This document shows, one piece after another, positions 6,234-60,833 of a stretch of DNA of 64,000 nt (position 1 is the first letter of the stretch; every line of letters begins with the position of its first letter). The position numbers were made by a program, and so were the translations under genes. A model generated the notes under the pieces. That model had not been told where the DNA came from, did no database searches, and was given only the letters and a program-made list of their open reading frames with translations. The stretch is from Bacteroides sp. (GTDB taxonomy: Bacteria > Bacteroidota > Bacteroidia > Bacteroidales > Muribaculaceae). Where the stretch lies: assembly GCA_014802045.1 (NCBI GenBank), contig JAAVDA010000013.1, forward strand, positions 1-64,000, written 5' to 3'.

Positions 6234-6300
6234 CTTTGTAGTCAAAGCGCCTATAGGGCGATGAGACTTCTTTTGTCCGAAGAAGTTCGGTAGTACATAG

Positions 6301-6696
6301 TGGAGCTGGGGGGAGTCGAACCCCCGTCCAAACGCGGAGTTAATATGCTTTCTACATGCTTAGTTTCTGCTTGGTTTTCGAGCTGCGGCAGGCCGGAAAC
6401 CACCAACCTCAGCCTTAGCCTCTAAGATTTCGGACGCCTCGCGAGGCTCTCGGTGTCCTATTCCCGATTTACCTGCACCGCCTTGTCGATTAGTCTCGGG
6501 ACGACGACAATCGGGCGATGTCTTGTCTCTGCGACTGTCGCGGAGATTAAGCCGATTTACTGTGCTTCAATCAGGCAGCAAGAGCGTAGTTATTTTCGCC
6601 ATTTGAAATTTTGATGTCCCAGATTAAAGAGCGTAGCCATCATTGCTCTGCATGCTTACACACCACCTCTACACGCTGTCAAAACCGGTCAACCCC
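6301..6696 (-). ncRNA. ssrA: tmRNA (transfer-messenger RNA)
   Basis: The minus strand from 6696 begins GGGGTTG and ends CAGCTCCA at 6301; the two ends pair as the 7-bp acceptor stem, with A6301 as discriminator. CCA is not encoded (CTA follows in the DNA). The T-arm reads GGGGGTTCGACTCCCCC. The tag reading frame lies at 6571-6600 and encodes GENNYALAA followed by TGA, the known Bacteroides-type tag with the ALAA degron. The RNA is about 396 nt, pairs with SmpB, and rescues stalled ribosomes while marking the incomplete protein for proteolysis. tmRNA genes are common integration sites, and the flank at its 3' side carries repeats. Confidence 0.97.
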
Positions 6697-51973: not shown

Positions 51974-53386
51974 ATGGCAGATTATGTAAGGGTCAGTACA
52001 GGTCAAGAATACCGTATCAAACGTGACCAGAAATGGATCGAATGTGATGACCACCAAAACAAAACGCCGTTTTGGCGCGATGTTGCTGTTGCTCCGCACG
52101 GACGCACAATAGTCGACATCCGCGAAAACCGATTTAAAAATGACTTCGAATGCCAATGCGATGATGGGCGTTGGTATGAAAGAAACCGTTTGGGCGGCCT
52201 CTCTCTCACTCAGGATGAACAAGCGAATGATTATCGCAAACAAAAAGAAGAGCGTGCCGCAAAAAAGAAATCCAGAAAAGAGCTACAAGCTGCTGCGAAG
52301 GCTTCTGCTACCGAGCAGAAAAAACTTGAACAAGAGCAAGTGCACGCTGCTTGGCTTGAGGGGCTTGAGACTATAGAAGCTGATTATGCTGAGGAAACCG
52401 CGTTAAAAGAAGCTCTTTTCGGAGCTGATTACGAAACCGTGCCCTATCCGGAAAAGATCTCTCGTTTCATACGGGTTATGATTCAAAATAAAAAGGGATC
52501 TGACAACTATAGGAAGGGCTACCATGAGCTATATAATGCTATCGAGGGCGATATTTTTGAAGTCGCATTCGATGATTGGGTGGATGGCATAGAAGTAGAA
52601 AAGACAAGTCCTTCGGAGAGTGAACAATTTGTTACTCCTGACGAAATGGTACTTGTATCCAGACTAAGCGCAGACTTTGTGACAAAATTCCCTACATTCG
52701 ATGGGAAATATCCTGAGCTTTGTGAAGAGCGAATTGATGCAATTTTTGCAATGCCCCAGATTGACAATAAGAAGCCCCCATTTTATGATATATTAGGCAA
52801 GAGAAAACATAAAATGATTGCACAGGTAGAGGACGAACTGACTTCTGCGATAACAGAGCTTCGTTGGAATATCAACAACTTGAGAACTTATTTAGTGATT
52901 GCAGAGCGTGAATCTCGCAGAATGCTACGAACCACCTACGACTATAAACTCATGGTGAAGAACGGCACGGGTAGCAAGCTAAATTTCTGGGGGAATGAGA
53001 AGAGCTCATCGCCTCTTTCAATCGCTAAGCATCAGATGGAGAGCACATATGAACGGATTGCAGACACCTTGGTCAATATCTCAAAAAAGTATGACAGTGT
53101 GGTAAATGAATATAAAACTGTCTCAAAATTATATACTAAACTTTACAAGTTGACAAAGGATCCTAACCATGCATCTGCACTGTCCTTTGACATGATTAAA
53201 GGCGATGGACTGGCTATTGCCGAAGCTATTCATATGAAAGGTCGGCGTGCATTTAAGAATAACTCACTAAACCTGGGACTGCAGGCATTCAGTGGAATTG
53301 ATAAACGCGAGCGATATCTTGCCAATATCACTGATGAAGAATTAAAGAAACTATTCAGTATCAGATTCGACCTCACCATTGACTAA
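51974..53386 (+). CDS. Large soluble coiled-coil protein, first gene of the type VII-like cluster
   Basis: A 470-residue protein with no signal or membrane segment. Residues 1-85 are beta-rich with aromatic and charged residues (a small N-terminal domain). Residues 85-135 are an Ala/Lys/Glu coiled coil (KKKSRKELQAAAKASATEQK). A helical region follows, with a second coil around 290-400 (KHQMESTYERIADTLVNISK). I do not recognise any family. GC is lower (about 42 percent) than the flanking core genes, a sign of a different origin. The next gene lies 44 bases on in the same direction. A scaffold or substrate-handling role is possible but only a guess. Confidence 0.75.
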   Translation: MADYVRVSTGQEYRIKRDQKWIECDDHQNKTPFWRDVAVAPHGRTIVDIRENRFKNDFECQCDDGRWYERNRLGGLSLTQDEQANDYRKQKEERAAKKKSRKELQAAAKASATEQKKLEQEQVHAAWLEGLETIEADYAEETALKEALFGADYETVPYPEKISRFIRVMIQNKKGSDNYRKGYHELYNAIEGDIFEVAFDDWVDGIEVEKTSPSESEQFVTPDEMVLVSRLSADFVTKFPTFDGKYPELCEERIDAIFAMPQIDNKKPPFYDILGKRKHKMIAQVEDELTSAITELRWNINNLRTYLVIAERESRRMLRTTYDYKLMVKNGTGSKLNFWGNEKSSSPLSIAKHQMESTYERIADTLVNISKKYDSVVNEYKTVSKLYTKLYKLTKDPNHASALSFDMIKGDGLAIAEAIHMKGRRAFKNNSLNLGLQAFSGIDKRERYLANITDEELKKLFSIRFDLTID

Positions 53387-53430
53387 ATATCATCACAACT
53401 AAATCACGATAACGACTAAACATCTTTGCA

Positions 53431-53961
53431 ATGAACACAAGTTTCAAAATTATGCTTGGTGCCTCGTTCTTGGTGCTGATGTCATGCAGCAAGAGCTCGC
53501 AGACCGAAACCAATCCTAACACTGATAGCACAGTAGTGACTGAAGAGACGGCTATAGCTACCGTGGCTGAAGAGACCGTCAACGCGGATTTCGGTCAGAT
53601 GGAATCTACCGCACGCCAGGTGTTTGCCCTGGTGTTCCCTCCGGGCGAGAAGGCAGACGACTTTGAGGGTATAGTAATATCGAAATGCACTCCATCATTT
53701 GTCGACGCCCTCAAGCGTGCCAATGATTTCGACGACGGCAGTCTTGCCTGGTGGGCTCTCCGCACCATGGAGCAGGAAGGTCCGGAAGAAGAAAGCTCTG
53801 TCATTTCCATTACCTCTGACGGTGATGATGCAGTGCTCGTGGAGTACTCCGACATGGGGCATAAAGCCACAACCCGTCTGGAGTTTGTAAAAGATGGTGA
53901 TGACTGCAAAGTCAACGCGGCCACCATATCTTTCAATGGAGAAAGAAGAACCGTAAAATAA
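53431..53961 (+). CDS. Lipoprotein with NTF2-like fold, in type VII-like cluster
   Basis: A 176-residue lipoprotein (lipobox LMSC, Cys19) with a Thr/Glu/Ser-rich linker (about 20-50) and a C-terminal domain of about 115 residues. Strands ISITSDGDDAVLVEYSD and TRLEFVKDGDDCKVNAATIS suggest an NTF2-like or DUF4878-like cone fold. Such lipoproteins are common in Bacteroidales and of unknown function. It may be periplasmic, facing the extracytoplasmic part of the TerB-like membrane protein encoded 13 bases later. Confidence 0.75.
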   Translation: MNTSFKIMLGASFLVLMSCSKSSQTETNPNTDSTVVTEETAIATVAEETVNADFGQMESTARQVFALVFPPGEKADDFEGIVISKCTPSFVDALKRANDFDDGSLAWWALRTMEQEGPEEESSVISITSDGDDAVLVEYSDMGHKATTRLEFVKDGDDCKVNAATISFNGERRTVK

Positions 53962-53974
53962 AAAGCTGAAATCA

Positions 53975-55045
53975 ATGTACGACCAGTCATTAGAACAACT
54001 AATTGATGCCGTAATTGCCGACGGGGTAATTACCGACCAAGAGCGCAGAGTGGTCTTAAAAAAGGCTGCATCGCTCGGCATCGATCAAGATGAGATAGAA
54101 GTCTATCTCGAAGGGCGCCTTGATGCCCTCAAAAAGAGCTATATGCCTAAATCAGGCAAACATGGCGTGGTGAAGACCTGTCCCAACTGCGGTGCTACCG
54201 TTGAATCCGGGGCTGCAAAATGCAAGGAATGTGGCTTCGCCTTCACAGGCATAGAGGCCAATTCCAGCGCAAAACTTCTTGACGAACGTCTTCGCGCCAT
54301 AAGAGGGACCGAAGATGAGGATAATGAGAAAAGAGCCAATATTATCAGCTCATTCCCAATCCCTACAACACGTGAGGATTTGATTGAGTTTATGGCGGCT
54401 CTCGAACCAAAGGCCTTATCAGGTATACCGTTCAAAAAGAACAAAATAGATAAAGCATATTACGAGAAGTATGTGGAATGTATAAATAAAGCTGAACTCG
54501 CGTTGCCTGATGAAAAAGTAGGTCAAATTCATTCATCTCGCTTAAAAGGCTATAACAGAAAATACCATGTACTTTATACTGTCGTTATTTTAGCGATCAT
54601 ATTGATTGTAGGTGGAGTAATCTACACTTCTAATGAAGTCATGCAAGCCCGTGAAGAAAAAGCTGCATCACTCCATGCCGAATATGAAGAATGGAAAAAA
54701 GAATCTATGGTGGAAATAGAAGAATATGCCGAGCAGTTAAATGAACAACTTGACGCTATACCAACCCCCACCGCTAGAAATTGGGAAACATGTGGAGCAA
54801 TGTGGAACAAAGTTTCCTGGTCAAAAAAATGGGACAACAAAAAATATCGTAGTCTTTTAAAAGAGGAAGGCTATTACGATGACGGTTTGGATAAAGATGC
54901 ATTTAAAGCTTTCGCTAGAAAAAAGAATTCTATCGGCGAGCAAATTAAGATGGCGCATCAGCAAGCCCTACGTAACTCAGGAATGTCTAAGACTGATGCG
55001 CACAACACTACTGTTAATGAGTTCTATGATTCAGAATATAGATAG
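53975..55045 (+). CDS. TerB-like / zinc-ribbon / single-TM protein
   Basis: A 356-residue protein with clear layout. Residues 1-55 are TerB-like (AVIADGVITDQERRVVLKKA, the acidic-helix pattern of TerB). Residues 69-86 are a zinc ribbon CPNCG ... CKECG (C69, C72, C83, C86). A helical linker follows, then one membrane segment at about 199-219 (VVILAIILIVGGVIYTS), then a charged helical region and a C-terminal domain with many Trp/Lys. The cytoplasmic-N, single-TM topology resembles EssB/YukC of type VII systems, but I see no sequence match; that is inference. GC falls to under 40 percent in the 3' half. Confidence 0.75.
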   Translation: MYDQSLEQLIDAVIADGVITDQERRVVLKKAASLGIDQDEIEVYLEGRLDALKKSYMPKSGKHGVVKTCPNCGATVESGAAKCKECGFAFTGIEANSSAKLLDERLRAIRGTEDEDNEKRANIISSFPIPTTREDLIEFMAALEPKALSGIPFKKNKIDKAYYEKYVECINKAELALPDEKVGQIHSSRLKGYNRKYHVLYTVVILAIILIVGGVIYTSNEVMQAREEKAASLHAEYEEWKKESMVEIEEYAEQLNEQLDAIPTPTARNWETCGAMWNKVSWSKKWDNKKYRSLLKEEGYYDDGLDKDAFKAFARKKNSIGEQIKMAHQQALRNSGMSKTDAHNTTVNEFYDSEYR

Positions 55046-55097
55046 AATTCAAAATAGTATAATTTTTAGTATTTAGCAAAAGTAACCATTTATTGTT

Positions 55098-55433
55098 ATG
55101 TCTGCTGAAGCCATTAGAAATATAATGCTATGGAAAGTATTTCCGGATGCCTCACAAGAGGTGAACATAGAAAACCTCATCAATACATCAAGTATTATAC
55201 AAGAGATCTTGAAACAAGTGGAGGATTATCATCCATGGATACCTAAGATTCAGGTAGGTGGATTAGATCCAAAGTTAGTCTCTTGTATAAGGGAACTCAA
55301 GGCTAGCACTGACACAAATAGAGATGACCTTTCAAGATTGATTGCTACACTTGAAGATTCAAAAGTAAGTTTGGATAAAATAACCGGTTGTGTTAACAGA
55401 TTATTAGAAGGACTAAGAAATGGGACTATTTGA
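55098..55433 (+). CDS. Small helical protein of unknown function
   Basis: A 111-residue soluble protein, all-helical in appearance (VNIENLINTSSIIQEILKQV at about 22-41; LSRLIATLEDSKVSLDKITG near the end). No known motif. GC is about 37 percent, the lowest in the window. Its 3' end overlaps the SPFH gene start by 14 bases, which suggests coupled translation. The C-terminal heptads may form a coiled coil with a partner in the cluster. Confidence 0.65.
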   Translation: MSAEAIRNIMLWKVFPDASQEVNIENLINTSSIIQEILKQVEDYHPWIPKIQVGGLDPKLVSCIRELKASTDTNRDDLSRLIATLEDSKVSLDKITGCVNRLLEGLRNGTI

Positions 55434-56307
55434 CGCATTCAAAAAGAAAAAAGAGGAACCGGCACCTCACAACAACCCGAACAGCGTCTTTACGCTGCGG
55501 TTTACGATTCCGTTTTTCTCGGTTTTTGACAAAACCAATCCCAAGCTCCGTGCTTTTCCGGTGAAGCTGTCGTGTGCAGGCAGTGTGCAATATCGTATTG
55601 CAGACCCCACACTCTGCTTCGACAACATTCCTCTGGCAAGCATGTCGGCAGGTCAGTTGGAGGAGCATGTGAAAGACTCGCTCCATGCGGCTGTAAAACA
55701 CTTCATCAACTCAATTGACTATATGCCGATATTGCAGTTTGAGACCGAACTGATGCGCATAAACGATGCTGCGAAGCAGTATCTCGTGCCTCAGTTTGCC
55801 GATGAATATGGCATCAATCTCCGCACATTCAACCTCACCGCCATAAGATATGATGAAGAGGATGCCAACTATCAGCGGCTCTATGCCCAGAGTGCCGCTA
55901 CAGCCGACAAACTTGGCAATCATGAGATTGAGAATCTCGAAATGGACCACGAAGATGACCTCTATGAGCGCGAACATCGCCGCCGGTTGCGTAATCTCCG
56001 CGACAATGAAGATCTGGTGGACCGCGAGAATAATCTGAGACTCCGCCAACAGGCCGGCGAACATGCGTTGCGCCGCAATGAGTCTCAACTTAATCGTGAA
56101 GATGATAGCGCCAACATAGACATTGAGCGCAAACGCCGTGAGATGGAGGAAGATATGTATGCCCGCCGTAAGGCCACTGATTCAGGAGCCCGATTGGCCG
56201 ACTCTCTTGGCAAGCGTGAGATGCCGGGTCTTGGAAACCGTCCCGCTCCCGGTCTGGGCAAAGAGAAGCCCTCATCTGCCGACGGTCTTGATCTGGGATC
56301 TCTCTAA
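55420..56307 (+). CDS. SPFH-domain (band 7-like) protein with coiled coil
   Basis: A 295-residue protein. After a basic start (GLFDAFKKKKEEP), residues about 20-150 carry an SPFH-like domain (SVFTLRFTIPFFSVFDKTN, KLSCAGSVQYRIADPTLCFD, ISS-type helix DSLHAAVKHFINSIDY). It is closest in style to the YdjI/virion-core-like SPFH group. Residues 155-255 are a long Arg/Glu coiled coil. The tail is Gly/Pro-rich (MPGLGNRPAPGLGKEKP). There is no hydrophobic membrane hairpin. In that group SPFH proteins usually come with zinc-ribbon partners; here the ribbon is in the TerB-like protein two genes upstream. It may form a membrane-associated ring. Confidence 0.8.
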   Translation: MGLFDAFKKKKEEPAPHNNPNSVFTLRFTIPFFSVFDKTNPKLRAFPVKLSCAGSVQYRIADPTLCFDNIPLASMSAGQLEEHVKDSLHAAVKHFINSIDYMPILQFETELMRINDAAKQYLVPQFADEYGINLRTFNLTAIRYDEEDANYQRLYAQSAATADKLGNHEIENLEMDHEDDLYEREHRRRLRNLRDNEDLVDRENNLRLRQQAGEHALRRNESQLNREDDSANIDIERKRREMEEDMYARRKATDSGARLADSLGKREMPGLGNRPAPGLGKEKPSSADGLDLGSL

Positions 56308-56333
56308 TACGAAATAAAACACTCTTGAAAAGT

Positions 56334-56410
56334 ATGTTGCAGAAGTGATGTCCTCTTTAGCTTCCTGACCGGACAATATCAGTTCTGCAACATCTATTTT
56401 TTTACCTTTT
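56334..56410 (+). terminator. Attenuator-like inverted repeat between SPFH and ATPase genes
   Basis: ATGTTGCAGAA (56334-56344) and its perfect complement TTCTGCAACAT (56383-56393) form an 11-bp stem, with GTCC/GGAC inside, followed by CTATTTTTTTACC. It looks like a terminator but sits inside the gene cluster, 10-85 bases before the ATPase start. Confidence 0.6.
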
Positions 56411-56419
56411 TTGAGCGCC

Positions 56420-59400
56420 ATGACTGAAGAAGAACTTGACCATGCAAGAGAAAGTGCTCGCTCGGGCAATCCTCGCGGTGAATATAATCTGGCTATGCTC
56501 TATGCCGGCGATTATTTGAAATACAGAGCCATCTACACTTTGCGTGCACTCTATCAGGGAATACTGCGCATTTATGAGGCGGCTGTCAACGGTAATTGCC
56601 CCGAGGTAAAGCCGAATGTAGCGGAATATCTGGACGCGTTTAAGGCTCATCCCTCAACAGGGAGGCTTAACGAACTTATCGTAGCCACCTTTCAAACTGC
56701 AACAGCACTCAATCCCATTGCCCTGGGACAGTTGACCACTGCTATTACCGGCGGAATCGCCTCATTGGCAGAAGCCCTTCCGCAGATACTCTGCCGACAT
56801 TATCCTGAGTGGAGAAAGTTTGACGACATTGACAGTTGTGTCAGTCGCTTGGTCACATCTCCCTCAAGCGAGTCGCTCTATGACCTTCTCGATACGATTT
56901 CAACATCCGCTTCAAGAAAAGGGGATAAGACTCTTATAGAAAAACTGCTTGCCGATGCGTTGCTCAAGGGTTTCGAGGCGGCTATAAAACCGCTGGCAAA
57001 ACTCAACGGATATCAAACCAGAGGAGTGTTTCTGCATGGCAACTTTATTATTCCGGTCTATGACGCGAAAGATAATTTAGCCTATCCTTCGATAAATCTT
57101 GGATATATCGCCCATAGAGTGAAGCTTGATGAGAAAAGAAGTGTTTCATTAATGGGTATGCTTGATTTTTTCACTCCCGATGTTTCGAACTTCAATCACT
57201 ATATATCGGTTGTCTACAACATCCACGATAAGCTGAGTCGGCAAGCCGGGTATGCTGTGATGCAGGCGGCTATGGCATCGGCTATGGCTTGGATGGGTCC
57301 ACAGAGATTTACACTCGATGTTGTTGACTATGAGCATACGGGGATAGGCTCCTATCCGGCTCGCTTTCTTCCTGAAAGACAGGTGAGGATAATATCACGC
57401 GACGAAGAGTGGTCAGCCGAACTTGACTCTATTGAAAAGATGATAGAGAAACGGTCGCGCGAAATGCAGTCTATTTTTGAGTATAACCGTATCAATTCCG
57501 ATATGCCCGAACAATACAAACTGATTGTTGTTCAAGATTATAACGGTCAGCTCATCACTGCTCATCCACCCGTTGGCGACCACCCGGACCAAAAAGAAAA
57601 AGATCGGTATGAACTTCAGTTGAAAAATGCGCGAAGGTTTCTGCATCTGCTTGAGCGTGGATATCGCTTCGGCTTGATTTTCATTGTTGGCTCAGGTAAA
57701 AATATCTACAACCCCTCTCGCCCGGCAATTGATTGCACAAAATCAATCAGTTTTCCAGGTCAGCCTTACTTGACCATCCGTGTTGAAGGTATCGATTCGG
57801 ATGGAGATGACTGGCTTATGAGATGGCTTGGGGGCGGTGAAGAAATCCAGCGCAAGCGCAAACAGGCCAGGGACGGTGATCAACAGGACGGTGCAGACGG
57901 AATCCTCACGACAGAGATTGCCGACGACGGCACTGATATTGAATTCAGGATGGATACCGTGAGCCACACCCACGCCTTTGTCATCGGTAAGACCGGCTCT
58001 GGAAAATCTGTATTGCTCCACAATATCATAACCGGACTCGTAAATGCCTATAGTCCCGACGACCTCGAATTATATCTGCTTGACTTGAAGATGGGTGGTG
58101 TGGAGTTTAACCGCTACCGTCGGTTGCCCCATCTCCGTTCGCTGCTTGTGGATAACAGCGACATACAGATTGTGCTCGAAATCATGCGCGACATCGATAT
58201 GATGATGCGCGAACGTGGCAAAGTGTTTCGCAATGCGGCGGTTAGCAACATCAAGGAATATAACCGCGCCCATCCCGACAAAAAGATGCCACAGGTTATC
58301 GTGGTGATTGACGAATGTCATGCCATTTTCTCTATGGGAGGCGGACGTGGAGCTGCAAAAGAACAAAGAGAAATCACCGAGCGCCTTGTAAAGATTGCAA
58401 AAGAGGGGCGCAGTCAGGGTATCCATCTCATTTTTGCCACCCAGACTCTGTCGGGTTCGGAAATTCCACCAGATATCCAGAAAAATATCACCGATTATTA
58501 TCTGCTTAAATGTGCGCCAAGCGATTCTGAAAGCCTTGTGCGTGGAAGCAGTTCAAGAACCGAAGCTCTACCGGTAGGTAAGGTCTACTATTATCATGCT
58601 GATCGCCAAGCATTATTTCAGGGTATATATAACGATAATAATGCTTGTGAGCAGCTTATCTCCGAGGCTTTGCAAAGATATTCAGGCAATAACAGTCACG
58701 GACAGTTCTATTTCAACGGGGCGCAGACATTTGAGCTTAATGCCGGAATTGTCAGCTATCTAAAGGCAGAGGAGGGCAAGACCGTTACCGGCTCACCTGG
58801 ACGCATGATTAACTTGCAGCAGACTCCGGTTATAATTAACCTGCGCAAGGATTACAGTGAAAACGTAATCTGCACAGGTATCAACAGCGACGAACAGTTA
58901 TCTCGCACCACAATTGCCCTTATGGCCTCACAGATATTGGCCGCCAGAGCTTCCGGTATGAAGCTAAAAGTGAATGTGATCAACTGTCTTGATTCTGAAT
59001 CGCCTGCATCAGTTCTACTCAATGAAATGGCAAGCTGTGAACTTATCTCTCTATATCGCCCTACCGACAGCGAGAGCTTGTTGAAACGTATGTGCAACAT
59101 GGTGAGCAAAAAAAACATTACCGACACAACTGTACTCTACATCCTGGGGCAGGAACGGTTTGGTGAGTTGAAACGCGATCAGAAATTCACAGCTGACCCA
59201 GACAATGATAATCTGAATTCGGGTGGCTTACCCGACATTTTTCAAGGCATCAGCTTCTCGACAACATCAACAAATGACTCATCGGCTTACGATTCATATA
59301 AAAAAGCTATTATCTATCTGCTGGAAAACGGACCGACTGTAGGATTACACACGGTAATTCAGATAGATAAGCCGGATAAACTTCTTTATGAAGATTTCAT

Positions 59401-59620
59401 TTCGGCCAAAACAATCAGCGCCCGATTCAAACATATCATAATATTGCGAAGCGATCCTCGGGCAGCAATTACCCTCGGACTAAGCGATGATATCAATCTC
59501 GAATCACTTTCGGCTGACCCCGAACGCCTACGTGCTTACTATTATTGCGATGAAGACGGCGTGGCGCGATTGTTCTCACCATTTGACACTATTTTAATTC
59601 AGACATTAGCAACCATTTGA
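56420..59620 (+). CDS. FtsK/SpoIIIE-type ATPase of a type VII-like secretion system
   Basis: A 1066-residue protein. The start is a Sel1/TPR-like helical segment (GNPRGEYNLAMLYAGDYLKY). A helical middle follows, with no clear membrane segment and no FHA domain. The FtsK-type ATPase comes next: Walker A GKTGSGKS at about 523-530, LYLLDLKMGGVEF after it, Walker B VIVVIDECHAIF (Asp631, Glu632) and a sensor segment IHLIFATQTL. A second FtsK-like domain in the last 270 residues has lost Walker A (ENVICTGINSDEQ around residue 814), as the later domains of EccC/EssC often do. It lacks the two N-terminal TM helices of EssC. I start at the ATG at 56420, not a TTG at 56411. Twelve bases separate it from the first WXG100-like gene. 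Confidence 0.88.
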   Translation: MTEEELDHARESARSGNPRGEYNLAMLYAGDYLKYRAIYTLRALYQGILRIYEAAVNGNCPEVKPNVAEYLDAFKAHPSTGRLNELIVATFQTATALNPIALGQLTTAITGGIASLAEALPQILCRHYPEWRKFDDIDSCVSRLVTSPSSESLYDLLDTISTSASRKGDKTLIEKLLADALLKGFEAAIKPLAKLNGYQTRGVFLHGNFIIPVYDAKDNLAYPSINLGYIAHRVKLDEKRSVSLMGMLDFFTPDVSNFNHYISVVYNIHDKLSRQAGYAVMQAAMASAMAWMGPQRFTLDVVDYEHTGIGSYPARFLPERQVRIISRDEEWSAELDSIEKMIEKRSREMQSIFEYNRINSDMPEQYKLIVVQDYNGQLITAHPPVGDHPDQKEKDRYELQLKNARRFLHLLERGYRFGLIFIVGSGKNIYNPSRPAIDCTKSISFPGQPYLTIRVEGIDSDGDDWLMRWLGGGEEIQRKRKQARDGDQQDGADGILTTEIADDGTDIEFRMDTVSHTHAFVIGKTGSGKSVLLHNIITGLVNAYSPDDLELYLLDLKMGGVEFNRYRRLPHLRSLLVDNSDIQIVLEIMRDIDMMMRERGKVFRNAAVSNIKEYNRAHPDKKMPQVIVVIDECHAIFSMGGGRGAAKEQREITERLVKIAKEGRSQGIHLIFATQTLSGSEIPPDIQKNITDYYLLKCAPSDSESLVRGSSSRTEALPVGKVYYYHADRQALFQGIYNDNNACEQLISEALQRYSGNNSHGQFYFNGAQTFELNAGIVSYLKAEEGKTVTGSPGRMINLQQTPVIINLRKDYSENVICTGINSDEQLSRTTIALMASQILAARASGMKLKVNVINCLDSESPASVLLNEMASCELISLYRPTDSESLLKRMCNMVSKKNITDTTVLYILGQERFGELKRDQKFTADPDNDNLNSGGLPDIFQGISFSTTSTNDSSAYDSYKKAIIYLLENGPTVGLHTVIQIDKPDKLLYEDFISAKTISARFKHIIILRSDPRAAITLGLSDDINLESLSADPERLRAYYYCDEDGVARLFSPFDTILIQTLATI

Positions 59621-59632
59621 CCAACGAAAATT

Positions 59633-59911
59633 ATGGCATCAGATGCAAGTGTGAAAAACGTAGACCAGCTACGTCAGTTCGGCTCCAATCTTAGGATTGC
59701 CGGTGATAATCTTACAACTCTCTTCCAGCGATTGAGTGTGCAGATGCACCAGGTGTGCGAAGGGTGGAATGACTCCAAAAACCAGGCTTTTATGGCAGAT
59801 TTCGAGGAGAAGTGCCGCACAATAACGCAGCTCTCGGAAGAGATGCAGCAGTATTCGCAGTATATCGCCCGTACCTGCGATATTCTCGACCAATACAGAA
59901 CGGCGCGCTGA
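59633..59911 (+). CDS. WXG100-like small helical protein (W-N-D form)
   Basis: A 92-residue protein of two helices with a turn at EGWNDSKNQAF: Trp45, Asn46, Asp47, then Phe53 eight residues after the Trp. The family rule is W-x-G with an aromatic residue nearby; here Asp replaces Gly. Size, helix-hairpin pattern and the position next to an FtsK-type ATPase match ESAT-6/CFP-10 proteins, which are the substrates and adaptors of type VII secretion. Its TGA shares a base with the next ATG (TGATG). No signal peptide, as expected. Confidence 0.85.
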   Translation: MASDASVKNVDQLRQFGSNLRIAGDNLTTLFQRLSVQMHQVCEGWNDSKNQAFMADFEEKCRTITQLSEEMQQYSQYIARTCDILDQYRTAR

Positions 59912-60384
59912 TGGCTGCTGATGTGAAAGTCGACTCCCTTGACTTGCTTAAGCAGTATCAGGGACACTTCCGGAACTTCGCCGATTGCGTGGAGGCCGGA
60001 GTTGTGATGTATCGTGACCGGCTGAAAAAACAGAAGGAAGAGGCTCAGCGCATGAAAAATGACGTTGAAAACCACGCCTCAAACGCACTCGAAAAGATTG
60101 ACTATCGTATAAATCGGCTTGAAGAGCTTAAATACCGGTTTGATTTTGCGAGTGAAGACACCGCGCGGATAGACATAGAAATAGAGAAGTTTCGGGCACG
60201 GCGAGAGGCTATAACATCTAAGATTGAATCTATAAAGGAGAAACTTGAGCGGCAGATAGGTATTCTTGACGACATATATAATCTGACCTATAGTTATGGC
60301 AACAAGACCCGTGAAATGGCCAACAGTGCCAACGGCTCTTTAACCGGAATTATAGGAACCCTCTCAAATTATAAACCAAAATGA
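59911..60384 (+). CDS. Coiled-coil helical protein, LXG-like N-terminus
   Basis: A 157-residue all-helical protein starting MAADVKVDSLDLLKQYQGHF, rich in Lys/Glu/Arg with a long central coil (RLKKQKEEAQRMKNDVENH, then YRINRLEELKYRF). There is no Trp. Its length and start recall the N-terminal part of LXG proteins or an EsxC/EsaC-like partner of WXG proteins, but I cannot assign it. It is coupled on both sides (TGATG with the gene before, ATGA with the gene after), so the three small genes are probably translated as a set. Confidence 0.72.
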   Translation: MAADVKVDSLDLLKQYQGHFRNFADCVEAGVVMYRDRLKKQKEEAQRMKNDVENHASNALEKIDYRINRLEELKYRFDFASEDTARIDIEIEKFRARREAITSKIESIKEKLERQIGILDDIYNLTYSYGNKTREMANSANGSLTGIIGTLSNYKPK

Positions 60385-60833
60385 GCGCATTGCAGACTCT
60401 TGAAGAGCTTTTCGTGAAATATCAGCGTCTCAACCAGATATTGAAAGATAACTGGAACGACGGCACACAGGAGACTTTTGACGGCAATTATCTCTCTCCG
60501 ATAGCTACAGAATGGAGCCAATATCATAGTGCAGTATCCGATATGATCGCACGGGTGCAATCTACCGTTCGCGAAATAGATGCAGACCTCGAAGATCTTA
60601 AACGTGAAGTCAGCGCAATGAATGGGCCATCAGGGTGCTCCCTGAACGGAGATGCGATATATGGAATCTCACTGAAACGTGATGTCATGAGCATGGTTCG
60701 TCACTTTATAGTCCCACAGTCAGAACTTAATTTCGCTGATGATTCATCACTGTGCATGATGGCTATGAAGCGTTTCCAGACATATGATGAGTATGACTCA
60801 CCCCACCTGGTTGAACCAATCTCAATATATTAA
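60381..60833 (+). CDS. WXG100-like protein with C-terminal extension (W-N-D form)
   Basis: A 150-residue protein. Residues 1-75 repeat the WXG100 plan: helix, turn LKDNWNDGTQETF (Trp25, Asn26, Asp27, Phe33, the same Trp-Phe spacing as the gene two positions upstream), helix. Residues 80-150 are an added domain (SLNGDAIYGISLKRDV) with Ser/Asp-rich strands. It is the last gene of the cluster; 40 bases later a convergent ABC exporter gene ends. The duplicated W-N-D pattern suggests a heterodimer such as EsxA/EsxB, with this as the longer partner. Confidence 0.82.
   Translation: MSALQTLEELFVKYQRLNQILKDNWNDGTQETFDGNYLSPIATEWSQYHSAVSDMIARVQSTVREIDADLEDLKREVSAMNGPSGCSLNGDAIYGISLKRDVMSMVRHFIVPQSELNFADDSSLCMMAMKRFQTYDEYDSPHLVEPISIY

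Follow-up and report, generated by a model that had tools for sequence, protein, structure and literature searches.

A 64,000-nucleotide stretch of Bacteroides sp. DNA (contig JAAVDA010000013.1, positions 1 to 64,000; hereafter the window) carries a cluster of nine genes, g1 to g9, which very probably belongs to the type VII-related cassettes that combine WXG100 proteins with a three-domain FtsK ATPase. The cluster is real: it consists of nine plus-strand open reading frames (ORFs) between 51974 and 60833, spaced by -14 to 112 nt, just as a first-pass annotation made from the sequence alone had described it. Within it, g6 to g9 (56420-60833) form a recurring cassette composed of an EccC/EssC-type ATPase, a W-x-D hairpin, a coiled coil and a second W-x-D protein. 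Because a WXG100/three-domain FtsK cassette is already in print (PMC3482391, PMC11090510), the first-pass statement that no named system has this set of parts was too strong; what is new, measured against the portions of the two papers considered here, is the variant bearing SPFH and TerB/zinc-ribbon genes.

An EccC/EssC-type ATPase encoded with WXG100-like proteins

The ATPase gene, g6 (56420..59620, plus strand), encodes a protein of 1066 aa that matches FtsK_SpoIIIE at 1.3e-29, in agreement with the FtsK-type ATPase proposed at first pass, as well as the type VII secretion system (T7SS) profiles EccCa (5.3e-28) and EssC (2.6e-24), both under the curated NCBIfam equivalog cut-offs. It is built of three tandem FtsK-like domains, D0 to D2, with a Walker A motif in the middle one only: D1 carries Walker A within residues 521-536 and Walker B at 631-632, while D0 and D2 are degenerate. 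D0 is homologous to D1, and D2, which sequence comparison leaves unmatched with D1 (4.9%), fits EssC D3 structurally. The ATPase tree took in 8 viral loci out of 79; support was only 0.251 for the grouping of every leaf except the 23 FtsK, and 0.999 for a group of 102 that includes four viral leaves. By profile, fold and tree, g6 is of the EccC/EssC type. A hydropathy scan gave no transmembrane (TM) helix in g6, which therefore has no N-terminal membrane anchor of the ESX/Ess type. We also considered that the ATPase might move DNA, for instance in conjugation or phage defence, with the hairpins as mere accessories. Structure fits exist for such a pump, but they span one domain, whereas the fits over 450 residues are to EccC/EssC; profile comparison places g6 closer to EccC than to FtsK, and Pfam found neither relaxase nor pilus families in the nine proteins. 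We consider a DNA pump very unlikely.

Directly downstream, g7 (59633..59911, plus strand, 92 aa) matches the WXG100 profile at 8.8e-6 with 26.3 bits, just missing the cut-off of 27.3, and is the sole WXG100 match at E <= 0.01 across the 2.22-Mb genome. Structure prediction gives a hairpin of two helices (pLDDT 90.7), and the first 35 matches to it in the PDB are all WXG100 proteins. On this predicted structure g7 carries the WXG100 fold, with W-x-D where WXG100 has W-x-G. The coiled-coil protein g8 (59911..60384, plus strand, 157 aa) is itself devoid of a toxin domain. The last gene, g9 (60381..60833, plus strand, 150 aa), encodes the second W-x-D protein, which gave a partial WXG100 match (0.002) and no match with a WXG model trained on close members; from its sequence it is likely a second hairpin. 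Hence, of the two WXG100 hairpins announced at first pass, g7 holds and g9 is only likely.

Relatives (loci numbered with L) were found with an alignment query, keeping the best 80 of 231 genome loci and the best 80 of 180 viral loci, and duplicate rows were dropped (L045, identical to L031; L069, to L032; L208, to L046); single-sequence ATPase scans of the genome and viral contig collections confirmed no relative. A WXG100-like gene lies beside the ATPase in 21/21 close loci, a count that is partly so by construction, as 17 of the 20 distinct close loci besides the window were training members of the WXG model. These 21 included L208 and not the window in the WXG-model search, and the window and not L208 in the gene-by-gene count. 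Independently of that model, blastp with g7 detected homologues throughout L038-L056 (17 of 19 loci) except in L052 and L053. The model trained on close members also matched near the ATPase in 55/72 distant loci, and 81 of its 82 matches there were same-strand and within 5 kb of the ATPase. These positive loci span Bacteroidales, Pseudomonas, Helicobacter, Rhodobacteraceae, Verrucomicrobia, Planctomycetes and Clostridia; the 17 negative ones, some of them cut by contig ends, are L033, L058, L059, L065, L068, L073, L075, L082, L087, L089, L095, L097, L098, L102, L110, L117 and L213. The model had no match in the 330 ORFs of 24 control loci, taken as chromosomal FtsK without annotation and having flanks of at most about 1.5 kb per side, nor in the 5561 ORFs of a second control, the 79 viral loci left once L173 was set aside. 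Because the cassette recurs with WXG100-like neighbours, the outcome that the first-pass annotation had named as fatal to its reading, ATPase homologues mostly lacking them, did not materialize. A g8-like coil accompanies the ATPase in 10 of the 21 close loci, window included, and a g9-like gene in 8, bearing in mind that the iterated models, coil model included, were tested partly on their own training members and that drift of the coil model is possible.

Among genomes the close ATPase is rare and patchy: at E <= 1e-40 its profile matches 2 of 395 in the phylum and 9 of 297 in the family, own genome included in both. Three of the nine family matches are near-full-length (G000, G949, G1061), and six are partial matches to sister-type ATPases of about 1090 aa or shorter. 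The source genome measures 2.22 Mb and is 75.7% complete, and the locus has a GC content of 45.2% against 49.7-54.9% in equal-size windows from the upstream part. We saw no empty site: in 8 congeners, the regions adjoining the ABC exporter contained, out of six flank proteins, the exporter only. No full-length relative was found on plasmid or phage records, and the relative L031 lies in a mobile-element context, judged by eye. The locus stands alone and may well have been acquired horizontally. Elsewhere in the window, a tmRNA gene with the tag GENNYALAA occupies the minus strand at 6300-6696.

Published relatives of the cassette

Zhang et al. 2012 (PMC3482391, Table 1 footnote 6) present solo WXG domains accompanied by a YueA-like ATPase with three HerA/FtsK domains, of which only the middle one is active, as 'mobile versions of T7SS', and name Bacteroidetes among the carriers. 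The locus resembles these in its three FtsK-like domains with Walker A in the middle one only, in the WXG protein alongside and in its Bacteroidetes host; partner genes are unnamed in the portion of that paper considered. The same portion-wise comparison with PMC11090510 brings up an extension of the CoCoNuT systems, consisting of a three-domain ATPase (centre active, no TM), two WXG100 proteins, one of them without WxG, and a coiled-coil protein. With this Type III-A extension g6-g9 share the ATPase type, the two WXG100-like proteins and the coil. There, however, the coil bears a nuclease and VWA genes belonging to a restriction system flank the set, whereas the window set stands alone with SPFH and TerB/zinc-ribbon genes upstream; Pfam detected no CoCoNuT core restriction or VWA genes among the nine proteins, flanking ORFs being only listed. 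For stand-alone forms, PMC11090510 cites Anantharaman et al. 2012. SPFH or TerB/zinc-ribbon partners go unmentioned in the considered portions of both papers, and we found no publication joining WXG100, FtsK and SPFH, as judged by titles and abstract starts.

With T7SSa and T7SSb (ESX, Ess/Yuk) the locus has in common an EccC/EssC-type ATPase encoded together with a WXG100-fold protein. It departs from them in the lack of TM helices in the ATPase, in the two-membrane host and in the single Walker A, EssC having two active ATPase domains (PMC11090510). EssB and EsaA were found neither among the nine proteins nor in the incomplete own genome, with a positive Bacillus subtilis control; for EccD, which completed the channel parts covered by the genome search, no control genome gave a match. 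HP0062 of Helicobacter pylori (PDB 3fx7, 2gts) also counts among the closest known systems.

The upstream genes and a proposed docked motor

The reading that we favour, and to which we give about the same credit as to all else taken together, is that of a stand-alone type VII-related WXG100/three-domain FtsK cassette whose motor would pump hairpins or coil-attached cargo and would be docked by g3 and g5. EccC and EssC bind Esx proteins, and in like manner the ATPase assembly may bind the g7 and g9 hairpins. It could then drive these, or a cargo linked to the coil module, through the inner membrane, being held there by the recruited TerB/zinc-ribbon/TM protein g3 and the SPFH protein g5, with the lipoprotein g2 sitting outside the inner membrane.

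The proposed dock lies in the upstream half, all of it on the plus strand. Here g3 (53975..55045, 356 aa) combines a TerB-like region, a zinc ribbon with four invariant Cys and, near residue 199, the only clear TM helix that the hydropathy scan gave among the nine proteins, which bears out the single TM segment annotated at first pass. Its Pfam matches to zinc ribbon (3.7e-5) and TerB (5.9e-4) are both under the cut-offs, its homologue in L049 has no TerB match at E <= 0.01, and a profile of its family returned mostly zinc ribbons from the PDB, with no TerB entry among the matches listed. The SPFH-like g5 (55420..56307, 295 aa), without TM helix in the hydropathy scan, matches Band_7 at 2.3e-4, under cut-off, and its homologue in L049 matches Band_7_1 at 1.5e-6, above cut-off. 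The likely lipoprotein g2 (53431..53961, 176 aa; lipobox by eye) has blastp homologues in L038 and L039, within zinc-ribbon proteins, and profile matches in L040 and L042 that are possibly due to zinc ribbons. For g1 (51974..53386, 470 aa) and g4 (55098..55433, 111 aa) no homologue was found at E <= 1e-3 among the related loci searched, so g1 may not be part of the set.

SPFH genes occur in 8 of the 21 close ATPase loci (nine matches, the one in L044 being a GYF-type stretch only) and TerB/zinc-ribbon genes in 7, as opposed to none of the 72 distant loci; g2-profile matches occur in 5 close loci. The corresponding Fisher values of 3e-7 (g5) and 1e-5 (g3) are not usable as probabilities, since the close loci are related and the L044 match is GYF only. 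The two genes recur with the ATPase in two separate branches of the tree. Among the close loci, the coil/g9 set and the SPFH/TerB set coincide in the window only and otherwise do not overlap.

Several observations bear on the link between the two halves. The SPFH profile (E <= 1e-15) matches 31/297 family genomes, covering the SPFH part in 21 and no more than the GYF-type C-terminal part in 10, and the TerB/zinc-ribbon profile (E <= 1e-12) matches 24/297; the close ATPase is absent from 18 of these 21 and from 21 of these 24. None of five family SPFH/TerB loci without the close ATPase has a WXG or ATPase-domain match; in four of them a TerB/zinc-ribbon protein is grouped with an SPFH-GYF protein, a four-TM protein and a small GYF-like one (GYF and TM assignments made by eye and from hydropathy), and L272, the fifth, was covered by profile scan only. 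Also, the 112-nt gap before g6 contains a strong RNA hairpin followed by a T-run (56334..56402, plus strand), a candidate terminator or attenuator (-29.9 kcal/mol for 56310-56419; z -4.1), and because of it g1-g5 and g6-g9 may be separate transcripts. Together, the hairpin and the ATPase-less loci call for caution in viewing the nine genes as a single machine.

Since the SPFH and TerB genes are mostly found apart from the ATPase, and apart from WXG genes in the five loci above, they form an independent module that was recruited to the cassette twice, once in the lineage of the window and once in another clade, as a candidate membrane dock. For the same reason we reject, as stated, the first-pass proposal that the SPFH, TerB/zinc-ribbon and lipoprotein genes replace EccB/D/E, EsaA, EssA/B and MycP. 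The related idea that Bacteroidales have a type VII-like exporter for two membranes, whose soluble EccC/EssC-type motor would be docked to the inner membrane by an SPFH/TerB/zinc-ribbon platform standing in for the EccB/D/E or EsaA/EssB channel complex, appears unlikely to us. The hairpin with its T-run and the ATPase-less loci would also suit a membrane-stress SPFH/TerB operon that has the WXG cassette as a chance neighbour; the restriction of SPFH and TerB genes to close loci, in two branches, speaks against this, a point that the kinship of the loci weakens, and we deem it very unlikely.

Export, intracellular roles and hints from relatives

Export by the cassette is plausible, and we put its chances at about even. 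In two distant relatives the coil is joined to a toxin: in L080 to ADPrib_exo_Tox, an ADP-ribosyltransferase, and in L078 (Helicobacter) to WHH/Colicin-DNase, with a SUKH-1 immunity gene adjoining. A Pfam scan of ten proteins gave clear matches in these three and weak or none in the other seven; ParB-like and HExxH features in L032, L036, L060, L062, L063 and L076 were seen by eye only. Cargo in distant relatives may be coil-borne toxins, and such fusions, with immunity, suit delivery to other cells. In known T7SS, WXG100 proteins are export substrates, as the portion of PMC11090510 considered also states. These points run counter to a less probable reading, which we rate clearly short of even, in which the ATPase, W-x-D and coil proteins form a conflict or stress module inside the cell, for instance one sensing invaders or membrane stress, with no export. 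In its favour are the lack of TM helices in the ATPase, the occurrence of SPFH and TerB/zinc ribbon on their own, the SspH defence profile on D1 (7.9e-28) and, downstream of the L115 ATPase, CARF-PDDEXK (7.6e-288) and MkoA-like (2.8e-90) proteins. PADLOC, which gave the SspH match together with mad8 (5.4e-19) and HerA models on g6 and weak ones elsewhere, assigned no defence system to the nine proteins. PMC11090510, in the portion considered, favours secretion for its extension and yet expects a mechanism unlike that of EssC, as TM domains are lacking.

Other relatives show further arrangements. A sister system in the window's family (L210, L211, L212) has an ATPase of about 1085 aa, two W-x-D hairpins, a coil and a third W-x-D gene; in L211, the only one scanned, JAB (5.1e-9) and ThiF/E1-like (2.5e-24) genes are present, and a 225-aa neighbour is E2-like by eye, with no Pfam match. 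In L074 (8267-11545, Bacteroidales) the ATPase starts with an FHA domain (FhaB model 1.8e-14, under cut-off), and two WXG-like genes plus a coil come after it; EssC likewise begins with an FHA domain. L036 (MT836827.1), labelled 'Bacteriophage sp.' and possibly cellular DNA, has genes for a ThiF-like protein, for a large ATPase resembling EssC and for a WXG-like protein whose C-terminal region shows HExxH by eye. In the IMG/VR contig L173 the match reaches ATPase residues 521-1056, with four WXG-like matches and one coil match. VWA-, phosphatase- and kinase-like genes surround the proteobacterial relatives L112 and L115, by eye, and WG-repeat proteins lie near the cassette in L039 (1.2e-12), L041 (2.1e-26) and, by eye, L038.

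Type VII secretion has been studied in Gram-positive bacteria and mycobacteria. A compact cassette combining that motor class and the WXG100 fold in Bacteroidales and other two-membrane bacteria, where some relatives add toxin and immunity genes, opens two questions to testing: whether the motor can do without the known channel and act across two membranes, and whether W-x-D proteins serve as cargo or as adaptors.
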